From an uncultured Bacteroidales bacterium (GTDB lineage Bacteria; Bacteroidota; Bacteroidia; Bacteroidales; Paludibacteraceae), in assembly GCA_900319645.1 (NCBI GenBank), contig ONPG01000003.1, forward strand, positions 248,001-312,000: a stretch of 64,000 nt of DNA. Direction: 5' to 3'. Under the pieces are notes generated by a model. It did not search any database. It was given only the letters and a program-made list of their open reading frames with translations, and was not told the origin of the DNA. This document shows, piece after piece, positions 10,128-33,570 of the stretch. Each line of letters begins with the position of its first letter. The stretch's first letter is position 1. A program made the position numbers and the translations under genes.

Positions 10128-11810
10128 TTAGTATCTGAACGAGCTACCACCCACAAACTCACGCAACAGCGAGGTCGGCGGTATCTCCCTCTCGGGAATA
10201 GGAATAAAATATTGCAGGAACTTGAGCAAACGGTGTGCTTCGGTATATTCCTCGCAGAACTTGGGCACATCTTGCAAAATAGGCTCGGCATGTCGTTTGA
10301 GCACTGCGAACTCAAAAATAAGCGCAGAGTTGAACATCACATCTGCTTCCTCCTGATAGGGATACACCCATTTCATCTCGCCGCGGATGACGCTCGGACA
10401 GCGGGCTATCGTCTCGCGGGCGGAGAAATTACGATACTTGTAATCACGCACGATACGTCTGAGCAAACGAATATCGGTCGTCGGAATCCAGTTGTGATTG
10501 TCTATATTGATGGTCGTCAGCGCGGACACGTAGATCTTGAAGGTCAGACTCCTGTCCACATCCGGCAGCACGCAGGGATTGAGGGCATGCAGACCTTCTA
10601 TAATGAGCACCGTGTCTTTCTGCAACTGCAACTTACGTCCCTCGAACACACGCTCGCCCTTGGTGAAATCGTATGTCGGCAATTCCACTTCCTTGCCGTC
10701 CAGCAGGTCATGCATCTGCTGGCGGAAGAAAGGCAGATCAACGGCGTTCACGTTCTCAAAATCCCACTCGCCGTTCTCGTCACGCGGCGTATCCACGCGG
10801 TTCACGAAATAATCATCCATACTCACCACCTCCGGCAATATGCCATCTACCAGCAACTGGATCTGCAAACGCTTGGAGAAAGTGGTTTTTCCGCTGGACG
10901 ACGGACCGCTGATAAACACGAACTTCGGTCGTTTCTCGGCGATGGCATCGGCTATCTGCGCTACTTTTTTCTCATGCAAAGCCTCAGCCAGCTTGATCAT
11001 CTCGAACGATTTGTTGCGTTTGCAAGCGATATTGAAATCCGTGGCGTTGTTGATGCGGAGCAACTTGTTCCAACGGTTGTACTCGCGGAAGATCGAGAAC
11101 ATCTTGTCTTGCGGAATCGACTCCTCCAGCTGCGTGGGATCCTTGCGGTTGGGGATACGGAGCAACATTCCGTCCTGATAGGGTTCGAGATCGAACACAT
11201 TGATATAGCCCGAACTGGGAAGCAGCACGTTGGTGTAATAATCAATGAAATCGCCCATCCGGAAATAGCGGCAATAGGGATTGCCGAGGGTCTCAAAGAT
11301 AGTGCTCTCGTTCTTGTGACGGGCGGCGAACATCTTGATCACCTCTTTGGTCTGTTTCTCTTCCTCATAGATAGGACGGTTCTCGGCGATGATCTGCTGC
11401 ATCCTCTGTTTGATAGCGGCGATCATCTCATGCGAGAGCACAGGCGTTTCCGCATTGTTGTCTCCGTCCTTCGACCACTGGAGCGTGCAGTAATAACCTT
11501 TGCTGATAGGGTGCTCGATGCGCAGGTCCGCACGGGGATACAGCTCGCTAATGGCACAAGCCAACACCATATTCAATGTACGCACATACACGCGCATACC
11601 CGACGGACTACTGGCATCCAGAAACTCCACATCTTTGGGCTTGTAGAGCAGAAAATCCAGGTTCTCCACCTTGTAATTGACGTGCGCGGCTATTATCGGA
11701 TAGGGCAACTGGAATCCCAGACGCTCTTTCAACTCGATGAGCGAGATACCGCGGGGCACCTCATGATAACTGCGCGTGTTCTTGCAATAAATGGTGATGG
11801 TTGGTTCCAT
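10128..11810 (-). CDS. Nucleoside (uridine) kinase with TGS and ThrRS-like N-terminal domains
   Basis: A 560-residue protein typical of Bacteroidota and some Firmicutes. Residues 1-75 look like a TGS domain (PRGISLIELKERL). The next part resembles the second additional domain of threonyl-tRNA synthetase. The second half is a P-loop uridine/phosphoribulokinase domain with Walker A SGPSSSGKTTFSKRL at about residue 300, then SMDDYFVNR and LIIEGLHALNP. It probably phosphorylates uridine or cytidine in nucleotide salvage; the N-terminal domains suggest RNA or nucleotide sensing but their role is unknown. Operonic, five bases after kdsA. Confidence 0.88.
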   Translation of the reverse strand: MEPTITIYCKNTRSYHEVPRGISLIELKERLGFQLPYPIIAAHVNYKVENLDFLLYKPKDVEFLDASSPSGMRVYVRTLNMVLACAISELYPRADLRIEHPISKGYYCTLQWSKDGDNNAETPVLSHEMIAAIKQRMQQIIAENRPIYEEEKQTKEVIKMFAARHKNESTIFETLGNPYCRYFRMGDFIDYYTNVLLPSSGYINVFDLEPYQDGMLLRIPNRKDPTQLEESIPQDKMFSIFREYNRWNKLLRINNATDFNIACKRNKSFEMIKLAEALHEKKVAQIADAIAEKRPKFVFISGPSSSGKTTFSKRLQIQLLVDGILPEVVSMDDYFVNRVDTPRDENGEWDFENVNAVDLPFFRQQMHDLLDGKEVELPTYDFTKGERVFEGRKLQLQKDTVLIIEGLHALNPCVLPDVDRSLTFKIYVSALTTINIDNHNWIPTTDIRLLRRIVRDYKYRNFSARETIARCPSVIRGEMKWVYPYQEEADVMFNSALIFEFAVLKRHAEPILQDVPKFCEEYTEAHRLLKFLQYFIPIPEREIPPTSLLREFVGGSSFRY

Positions 11811-17570: not shown

Positions 17571-17689
17571 CACTCGCTTTATGTCCGCAAACGGATTTCA
17601 TGCCGCATGGCATCCCATCCGCATGGCACTCCTATCCGCATGGCGCTCGGGACGCAAACCGAAGCCGGAGGCTGTTTGCGGACCGAAGA

Positions 17690-17760
17690 GCGGAGGCAAT
17701 GGTCGCACTTAGCAATTAGCGAAGCGGTTTGCTCTTATGCGACCCATTTGCCGAACGCGA
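17690..17760 (+). other. Leader hairpin element directly before tmRNA
   Basis: GCG (17690-17692) pairs with CGC (17756-17758) and GGCA (17695-17698) with TGCC (17749-17752), leaving GA opposite GAA. Inside, ATGG-TCGCA pairs with TGCGA-C-CCAT, with one bulged C and a single T before TGCC. The element ends two bases before the mature tmRNA. The same outer frame with different inner bases precedes tRNA-Ala and tRNA-Leu(GAG). Confidence 0.75.
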
Positions 17761-18150
17761 GGGGCTATCTGGTTTTGACAGCAGGTAGAGTAGTTGTGTA
17801 AGCACGCCGAGCATTGAGGATACGCTCGTAAATATCATCTTCGAACTATAACTGGCAACACTTCTTATGCTCTCGCTGCCTAATCGAAGTATAGTAGATT
17901 AGCATCATTCGGGCGCAAGGCGCCTGAACGGGACGTCGCTCCAAGCCGAGTCTGTGGGCTGAAGGATCAAGCGGCGCAGGAATACACAGAATAGTTTTTG
18001 CAGGCTGCGATGCAAAAGCGAAAACAAAGCAGATAAGCCGGTAGTTGGTGGCTTGGGTCTTGCTGCCGGACGAAAACCAAGGCCAAGATAAGCGTGTAGA
18101 AAGCACAAATATTCCTTGTTTGGACGCGGGTTCGACTCCCGCTAGCTCCA
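17761..18150 (+). ncRNA. ssrA: tmRNA
   Basis: Rescues stalled ribosomes by acting first as alanyl-tRNA, then as a short message that tags the nascent protein for degradation. The ends form the tRNA-like acceptor: GGGGCTA (17761-17767) pairs with TAGCTCC (18143-18149), with the alanine-identity G3-U70 pair. The T-arm GGACGCGGGTTCGACTCCCG is canonical, and TTTTGACAGC follows the 5' acceptor as in other tmRNAs. The likely resume codon is GGC at 17854, giving tag GNTSYALAA and stop TAA at 17881-17883. CCA is not encoded. 390 bases. Confidence 0.95.
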
Positions 18151-18182
18151 CACAAACGCGCGATCCTATGAATCGCGCACAA

Positions 18183-18248
18183 GCGGAGGCATCGAGCACC
18201 CCAACGACGACGAGGTCGTCGGTCAACGTGCGAGATTGCCGAACGCGA
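18183..18248 (+). other. Leader hairpin element directly before tRNA-Ala
   Basis: GCGGAGGCA (18183-18191) and TGCCGAACGC (18237-18246) form the same outer stem with a GA/GAA internal loop. The inner stem is TC-GA-GCAC against GTGC-GA-GA, with a single T before TGCC. An apical hairpin GACGAC-GAG-GTCGTC lies inside. It ends two bases before the tRNA. Confidence 0.75.
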
Positions 18249-18321
18249 GGGGCACTAGCTCATCTGGTAGAGCGTAACGTTCGCAATGTTAAGGTAAGGG
18301 GTTCGAGTCCCCTGTGCTCCA
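18249..18321 (+). tRNA. tRNA-Ala (CGC)
   Basis: Acceptor GGGGCAC pairs with GTGCTCC and includes the G3-U70 alanine determinant. Anticodon CGC at 18282-18284 in loop TTCGCAA reads GCG. CCA is not encoded. Same transcript as tmRNA, and 15 bases upstream of the next ORF. Confidence 0.93.
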
Positions 18322-18336
18322 CTCAATCAAACCGAT

Positions 18337-33123: not shown

Positions 33124-33161
33124 CCCATCAGTATGAAACAAAAACTTTACTTTCTCTTGCG

Positions 33162-33245
33162 TGCGCAGGATGAGACTCGAACTCACACGATCTTGCGACC
33201 ACTACCCCCTCAAAGTAGCGTGTATACCAATTTCACCACCTGCGC
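33162..33245 (-). tRNA. tRNA-Leu (GAG)
   Basis: 84 bases with a long variable arm; acceptor GCGCAGG pairs with CCTGCGC. Anticodon GAG in loop TTGAGGG. CCA not encoded. Third gene of the array. Confidence 0.9.
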
Positions 33246-33313
33246 GTCGCGTTCGGCAACAAGGTCGCATTGACTGACCGCGCAGCGGTCATTAGGGCGA
33301 CTTGTGCCTCCGC
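33246..33313 (-). other. Leader hairpin element before tRNA-Leu(GAG)
   Basis: On the minus strand GCGGAGGCA and TGCCGAACGC form the same outer stem as before tmRNA. The inner stem CAAG-TCGC pairs with GCGA-C-CTTG, with the bulged C and single T in the same places but different bases. The apex is TGACCGC-TGC-GCGGTCA. Confidence 0.75.
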
Positions 33314-33372
33314 TCTCCCCAAAAATTAAAATTTTCGGGGACCCCATAAAGGGGCAATTTAAAAGATCACTG

Positions 33373-33454
33373 TGCCCAGAACAGGACTCGAACCTGCACA
33401 CCTCGCGGCATGCGCACCTGAAACGCACGCGTCTACCAATTCCGCCATCTGGGC
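33373..33454 (-). tRNA. tRNA-Leu (CAG)
   Basis: 82 bases with a long variable arm; acceptor GCCCAGA pairs with TCTGGGC. Anticodon CAG in loop TTCAGGT. CCA not encoded. Second gene of the array. Confidence 0.9.
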
Positions 33455-33524
33455 GCGCTTGCATCAATACTTCGCGTGACTCGCGGCATGCCGCTCGATT
33501 ACGCCTATGTATTGTGCTACGCTT
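33455..33524 (-). other. Diverged leader hairpin before tRNA-Leu(CAG)
   Basis: Minus strand: GCG-TA-GCA-CAATAC pairs with GTATTG-A-TGC-AAG-CGC, which abuts the tRNA with no spacer. The layout (outer GCG/CGC, internal loop, GCA/TGC, one-base bulge, inner stem) matches the other elements though the sequence differs. A GCGGCATGCCGC palindrome lies inside. Confidence 0.6.
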
Positions 33525-33570
33525 TTCGGTCTGCAAAACTGCGTTTTACATCCCGAGGTTTGTTGGACCC

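Follow-up and report, generated by a model that had tools for sequence, protein, structure and literature searches.

Palindromic repeats that enter genes have been described in Rickettsia (RPE, PMC2229807) and, as intragenic REPs, in several other bacteria (PMC3733652). RPE are characterised as dispersed, hairpin-forming sequences of 105-146 bp that are listed with no known enzyme of their own and that occur in frame in conserved protein genes as well as in RNA genes, i.e. those for tmRNA and RNase P RNA (PMC2229807). The GTAG and CGTC families of REPs are presented as short palindromes with heterogeneous stems, some of them intragenic, and the CGTC REPs, which include those of Bacteroidetes, as having no associated transposase (PMC3733652). 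MITEs and other small bacterial repeats are described as non-coding, dispersed, and structured when transcribed (PMC2229807).

We analysed a stretch of 64,000 nt from a Bacteroidales genome ("the window"), in which similar hairpins precede a tmRNA gene and several tRNA genes. For these hairpins, the initial annotation had offered two explanations, a signal for the 5′ maturation or the folding of stable RNAs and a mobile hairpin tolerated at these places. The latter is supported: copies are dispersed, one is nested within another, some lie in frame within proteins, the stems are compensated, the 3′ ends are placed at boundaries, and the element is present or absent between species at the same tmRNA, tRNA, rpmF, and murB sites. 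The hairpins are likely to be members of a family confined to one genus and made up of small palindromic DNA elements that appear to be mobile and carry no gene.

Hairpin units in the window and two families

A window scan for the frame GCGGAGGCA-N-TTGCCGAACGC yielded exact matches at the three hairpins assigned to family A in Table 1, and none was found in 100 dinucleotide shuffles. According to ARAGORN, the mature tmRNA, tRNA-Ala(CGC), and tRNA-Leu(GAG) start 2, 2, and 3 nt past the respective hairpins. RNAfold reproduces the GCG/CGC and GGCA/TGCC stems, the GA/GAA internal loop, and the inner stems in all three copies, confirming the structure that had been drawn. The folding z-scores are −3.1 (tmRNA), −3.1 (tRNA-Ala), and −2.4 (tRNA-Leu(GAG)), and the leader of tRNA-Leu(CAG) has a value of −2.5.

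Table 1. Positions of the hairpin units in the window.
Feature	Position	Strand	Basis
Hairpin 1, unit 5′ of tmRNA, TCGG...CCGA type	17647..17686	+	RNAfold; module type recurs in other copies
Linker AGA, tmRNA unit	17687-17689	+	
Hairpin 2, family A, 5′ of tmRNA (17761-18151)	17690..17758	+	Frame, RNAfold, model R1 75.3 bits
GA after hairpin 2 of the tmRNA leader	17759-17760	+	
Hairpin 1, tRNA-Ala unit, GCGCGAT...ATCGCGC	18158..18178	+	RNAfold
Hairpin 2, family A, 5′ of tRNA-Ala(CGC) (18249-18322)	18183..18246	+	Frame, RNAfold, model R1 48.1 bits
Hairpin 2, family A, 5′ of tRNA-Leu(GAG) (33161-33245)	33249..33313	-	Frame, RNAfold, model R1 67.0 bits
Linker AGA, tRNA-Leu(GAG) unit	33314-33316	-	
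Hairpin 1, tRNA-Leu(GAG) unit: GGGGTCCCC, AT-rich hairpin, GGGG	33317..33345	-	RNAfold
Hairpin 2, family B (GCGTAGCACA...GATGCAAGCG), directly 5′ of tRNA-Leu(CAG) (33372-33454)	33455..33522	-	Fold and pattern
Hairpin 1, family B unit, TCGG...CCGA type	33526..33556	-	RNAfold

The extent of the element is larger than the annotated hairpin, which stands as drawn but forms one unit with the adjoining 5′ stretch, hairpin 1. The order is a variable hairpin 1, an AGA- or AAA-like linker, hairpin 2 (GCGGAGGCA...TTGCCGAACGC) as the 3′ half, and usually GA. Hairpin 1 was detected upstream in 176 of the 180 copies that have enough 5′ sequence, with a search so permissive that 315 of 516 control windows were also positive (median −10.3 kcal/mol versus −16.4 kcal/mol for the copies); the case for it therefore rests on the recurring ends TCCC/GGGA, CCCC/GGGG, and TCGG/CCGA together with the linker. 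No Rfam match overlapped the element, either in the window at the gathering score or in 20 loci at E ≤ 1. At positions 674-730 of the window, the leader of the first tRNA-Met folds as a hairpin ending in TTGCCGGACGCTCGAT and could be a degraded relative of the element.

The hairpin before tRNA-Leu(CAG), initially regarded as a diverged fourth copy, keeps the layout, but it belongs to a second family (family B) and has no match to the family A model R1 at E ≤ 10. Scanning 61 genomes with the family B pattern returned 21 matches, which lie in 15 of these genomes, compared with 4 for a backward control pattern. Members were chosen by eye on the basis of a common inner sequence, and all seven recognised members adjoin a tRNA gene, six in sense (Met, Ala, Thr, Gln, and twice Leu, one of the latter cut by a contig end and read by eye) and one antisense at the 3′ end of a tRNA-Leu gene. 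None of the other 14 pattern matches has a tRNA within its locus. The 4-nt arms are fully complementary in five members, and L394 and L401 have one mismatch; the minimum-energy fold of L394 deviates. Family B, so far found at tRNA genes in 7/7 cases, one of them antisense, keeps a tRNA-specific reading alive for this family.

Other frames of similar layout are also present before tRNAs; as they were found via tRNAs, they are uninformative about tRNA specificity. Further frames flush with tRNA 5′ ends, several of them with GACGA-like tails, occur at L235, L240, L248, L253, L255, L082, and L110, and possibly form a third family. Flush hairpins as a feature of all tRNA leaders were rejected: leaders without family A have them in 30 of 161 cases versus 15 of 157 and 18 of 159 in the comparisons, a modest excess that is inflated by tRNAs within the 90-nt leader window.

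Distribution, pairing, and placement of the copies

With the covariance model, the own genome gave 15 copies, and 48 of the 61 congeneric genomes were also positive, the number ranging from 0 to 52 per genome. In 245 genomes from other genera of the same order, two of these genera belonging to the same family, it found none (E ≤ 1e-4, strict filters). The covariance search proposed in the initial annotation did return additional copies before stable RNAs in relatives, with supported covariation, but most copies lie elsewhere. Among the matches listed, the named records with the frame pattern are for the most part MAGs from gut and rumen with Paludibacteraceae or Bacteroidales in the title; the match coordinates of the congeneric model search and of the pattern scan are also those among the matches listed. 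In genome G054, which has 52 copies, the copies at L190-L192 are closely spaced and nested, one lying within another at L191, and they include a subfamily with the frame GGCA/TGCC altered to GGTA/TACC on both sides.

For the analysis of context, 184 distinct copies were collected from the fetched loci with a regular expression for the outer frame, which misses 6 of the 15 copies of the own genome; high scorers are favoured, and orthologues were counted separately per species. Fourteen loci (L070, L073, L081, L094, L105, L124-L126, L149, L160, L167, L187-L189) were left out as chance frame matches before individual inspection. A later check of these frame matches, from other phyla and three viral contigs, revealed no paired inner arm in 13 of the 14.

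The outer frame served as the search key, and its invariance therefore carries no evidential weight. In an alignment of 35 copies built by MAFFT without structure, 93.5% of the cells are paired, compared with 78.8% after shuffling, and double changes occur at 14 of the 23 pairs. The number of doubly changed cells is 117 versus a shuffled mean of 32.6, with no value as high in 500 shuffles and 7-19 in slid controls, so that the covariation noticed in the inner stems of the window copies is far above chance. For 113 model-aligned copies (109 distinct), the alignment of which was fitted to the structure, the values are 449 and 112.6.

Each of the four Watson-Crick types is common in the two pairs that vary most, where G-T accounts for 3 of 336 cells, in contrast to 34 of 581 in the tRNA acceptor stems of the same loci (p = 9e-5). 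This depletion is local: pairs 3-4 have G-T in 14/336 cells, which is not rare, and 37/336 of their cells are unpaired. A DNA palindrome explains the scarcity no less well than an RNA does, and copying from arm to arm would suit it too. The claim of selection on an RNA structure is thus upheld by the covariation as far as a selected structure is concerned, but a DNA palindrome suits the few G-T pairs at least equally. Copies flush with tRNAs fold no better than the remaining copies (p = 0.53).

Of the 184 copies, 44 have a sense tRNA or tmRNA gene 2-8 nt downstream, 8 have an antisense one at 0-3 nt, i.e. they lie past its 3′ end, 20 have an open-frame ATG no more than 15 nt away, and 13 have an antisense -7 box (11 of them at 3-5 nt); the remaining 99 have none of these neighbours. 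In shifted controls, the values are 0-2 for tRNAs, 3-18 for ATGs, and 0-5 for boxes. Because the ATG class barely exceeds its controls, the case for start codons rests on the 12 of 123 non-tRNA copies with an ATG at 1-3 nt, compared with 0-3 in 13 shifted controls. Antisense stop codons at 1-5 nt were found for 11 of the 123 copies, versus 0-3 in shifted controls. The arrangement is polar: a tRNA or tmRNA gene lies within 10 nt on the 3′ side of 52/184 copies and on the 5′ side of 2/176. For 47 copies, the nearest sense tRNA is no more than 300 nt downstream, and in 44 of these cases it is at 2-8 nt. The 3′ end of the element is set beside functional boundaries regardless of the direction of transcription. 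The placement before stable RNAs reported for the window holds, but sense tRNA and tmRNA leaders account for 44/184 copies only.

Two further contexts were observed. At L114 and L039, a -7 promoter box of the TACCTTTGCAC type lies on either side of the element, and the copy may thus separate two promoters. At L104, L107, and L195, the 3′ end adjoins a boxA-like TTCTTTGAC, a type found in leaders of RNA operons.

Occupied and empty sites and possible modes of spread

An ORF pass identified 26 copies inside open frames, 18 of which were translated; seven conserved-looking frames were chosen for a Pfam search, and all seven had a match (MurB, DapB, an RND transporter, two FAD-dependent proteins, a SpoU methylase, and a NUDIX protein). 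At L015 and L178, the copy stands early in the open frame, ahead of the domain that was matched, which makes an insertion into the protein less sure. The alignments of MurB and DapB to solved relatives break exactly at the inserted peptide. In MurB, an insert of 36-38 amino acids between YP and VKIPAAW replaces a short SPQG loop in 5 of the 39 genomes with a match, and 34 are without the insert. The inserts of the five species are nearly identical in DNA and the flanking codons differ, which could mean exchange or constraint and not new insertion. Other, unrelated short insertions occur in the same MurB loop at L298, L301, L304, and L315, showing that it is an insertion-tolerant site.

Orthologous leaders, too, are mostly without the element. 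Two of three aligned relatives (L223 and L214) have no spacer at the tmRNA/tRNA-Ala junction, and the third has only a few nucleotides. Among 30 displayed tRNA-Leu(GAG) leaders, five have the family A frame, two more have a diverged frame with a matching layout, and the others have plain spacers or other hairpins. One of 30 displayed tmRNA leaders, that of the own genome, contains family A; the match coordinates place a copy flush with tmRNA in at least six of the 58 genomes where a tmRNA was matched (five in sense at 2-8 nt, one antisense). Of 30 rpmF leaders inspected by eye, 21 are plain, two have family A, one is a hybrid with its 3′ frame, three have a compact pseudoknot, and three have other structures.

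How such an element might move can be outlined tentatively. The folded strand, as single-stranded DNA or as a cruciform, might be the substrate of a trans-acting enzyme; copies with broken stems would then stop spreading, and the surviving lineages would therefore have different yet well-paired arms. This detail of folded-DNA mobilisation is conceivable, though we give it less credence than its alternatives taken together. Joining at the 3′ end would be exact, with the adjacent short spacer lost or replaced, so that the element would end at the start of the essential sequence. In our preferred view, flush 3′ ends are what is observed, as deeper losses are lethal. Where the element lies in a tRNA or tmRNA leader, it would be transcribed and presumably removed together with the leader by RNase P. 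The flush 3′ end is not predicted by random insertion, and spacer loss is an added assumption; in addition, the bias at tRNAs (44 sense versus 8 antisense) and the location of all family B members at tRNA genes exceed what a passive passenger would show.

As candidate target-site duplications, flush direct repeats of at least 9 nt were present at 7/184 copies, versus 0.6 in shuffled sequences; by eye, two of them are promoter consensus, one is element versus element, and two are locally repetitive DNA. Mobilisation by a Y1/RAYT enzyme, as in REP/RAYT or IS200/IS605-derived repeats, was rejected: Y1_Tnp was found in 23 of 61 genomes, and one of 30 Y1 loci contained a copy of the element. No Y1_Tnp was detected in the draft genomes G054, G017, G001, and G050, which have high copy numbers.

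Alternatively, an integration machinery could recognise a target feature and bring the 3′ end to gene edges, chiefly those of tRNA genes, and later spacer loss would not be needed. Such targeted docking would account for the 44 of 47 copies at 2-8 nt from a downstream sense tRNA, and the exclusive location of family B members at tRNA genes, with 14/14 other pattern matches having no tRNA, points in the same direction. However, by eye no evident common sequence follows the GA at tRNA starts, start codons, -7 boxes, and stop codons, and docking at the base of downstream hairpins was rejected for non-tRNA copies (flush in 20/128 versus 37-42 in shifted windows). We consider targeted docking somewhat unlikely and prefer precise 3′ joining with spacer loss; targeted docking is the main alternative, strengthened by family B.

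A wider reading, which we also rate as rather doubtful, is that families A, B, and others form one class of mobile hairpins that dock at boundaries and swap hairpin 1, with B being tRNA-specific and the start-codon copies perhaps being portable leaders. The members would have a defined 3′ end exactly at a tRNA 5′ end, a start codon, a -7 box, or a stop codon. The loop of an additional hairpin, hairpin 0, would pair with the 3′ strand of hairpin 2, and the resulting pseudoknot might act as a portable translational leader.

The start-codon copies could instead be a separate regulatory RNA, in which hairpin 0 and the 3′ frame form an H-type pseudoknot (at rpmF, dNK, and others) and the hairpin modules were inserted into a pre-existing start-codon pseudoknot. 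Of 11 start-codon copies tested, 9 have hairpin 0 and complementarity between its loop and the 3′ frame, compared with 0/42 at tRNA 5′ ends and 0/8, 0/13, and 5/98 in other groups. By eye, a compact H-type pseudoknot stands alone before the start codon of rpmF (L328, L338, L342) and dNK (L356, L375), with differing but compensated arms of the loop and the 3′ strand and with GCGA- or CGAC-like tails; these compact forms may represent either regulatory leaders or short relatives of the element. As a general feature upstream of start codons, the pseudoknot was rejected, with 21 cases at 10,368 start codons versus 11 in shuffles, and it would account for a minority of the copies; we regard a separate regulatory RNA as improbable. 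Of six small proteins encoded close to copies, five lie immediately after a start-codon copy; the six gave one Pfam match (DUF3467) and weak phrogs matches.

The remaining explanation, a cis-acting RNA leader whose hairpin positions RNase P or insulates and folds the stable RNA, with the non-tRNA copies as strays, takes up the maturation or folding signal of the initial annotation. It would be in line with the strong covariation, with the sense orientation of 44 of the 52 tRNA-abutting copies and of six of the seven family B members at tRNA 5′ ends, and with the other hairpin frames flush with some tRNAs. Nevertheless, it is very improbable, as 140/184 family A copies are not sense leaders, the eight antisense copies past tRNA or tmRNA 3′ ends are unable to act on a 5′ end, the family A frame is absent from 25/30 tRNA-Leu(GAG) and 29/30 tmRNA leaders displayed, tRNA copies are no better structured, G-T is scarce in the most variable pairs, and the excess of flush hairpins without family A is modest. 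A dedicated tRNA/tmRNA leader element was therefore rejected for family A. The presence of copies at start codons, promoters, and stop codons, and in enzymes also gives the mobile element an appearance other than that of a dedicated tRNA-maturation signal.

Comparison with known palindromic repeats

By description, the element resembles RPE in being a dispersed palindrome of about 100-150 bp with in-frame copies in conserved proteins (PMC2229807). It differs in being confined to one Bacteroidales genus and in consisting of two consecutive hairpins, and membership in RPE is not claimed. Furthermore, its 3′ end adjoins tRNA 5′ ends and other boundaries, whereas RPE are described as lying inside RNA genes, and the 12-bp terminal inverted repeats listed for RPE were not seen in the element (PMC2229807).

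Like the REPs, the element is a short palindrome with heterogeneous stems and some copies in genes (PMC3733652). In contrast to them, its stems are longer and bulged, its two hairpins differ from each other but share one orientation, and its docking at functional boundaries is polar. A GTAG or CGTC tag beside the hairpin was absent in the copies inspected, which have AGA or AAA before and GA after hairpin 2. With MITEs and other small bacterial repeats, it shares being non-coding, dispersed, and structured on transcription (PMC2229807). Unlike MITEs, it has no terminal inverted repeats across the whole unit, and candidate target duplications were seen at few copies (7/184).

Integron attC sites are imperfect hairpins in which the outer boxes are conserved, some bases are extrahelical, and the apical part varies, and the element is similar in all of these respects. 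Its reverse complement contains GTTCGGC, one mismatch away from the attC motif GTTRRRY. However, its outer boxes are not perfect inverted repeats.

The listed titles and abstracts of the open-licence literature on small palindromic repeats, RPE and REPs, Bacteroidales, or tRNA contexts contained no report of the element. The family offers an unusually clear structural covariation, many empty comparison sites, and a polar docking rule. With it, two questions become accessible to tests: by what route repeats spread when no transposase is known for them, and in what way genes withstand insertions exactly at tRNA ends, at start codons, and within enzymes, MurB among them. It is also a caution that a covarying hairpin 5′ of stable RNAs is not necessarily a cis-regulatory RNA. 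RPE and REPs are the nearest kinds, from which this family of rumen and gut Bacteroidales is distinct, and its new aspect is the polarity of docking, with 52/184 on the 3′ side versus 2/176 on the 5′ side.
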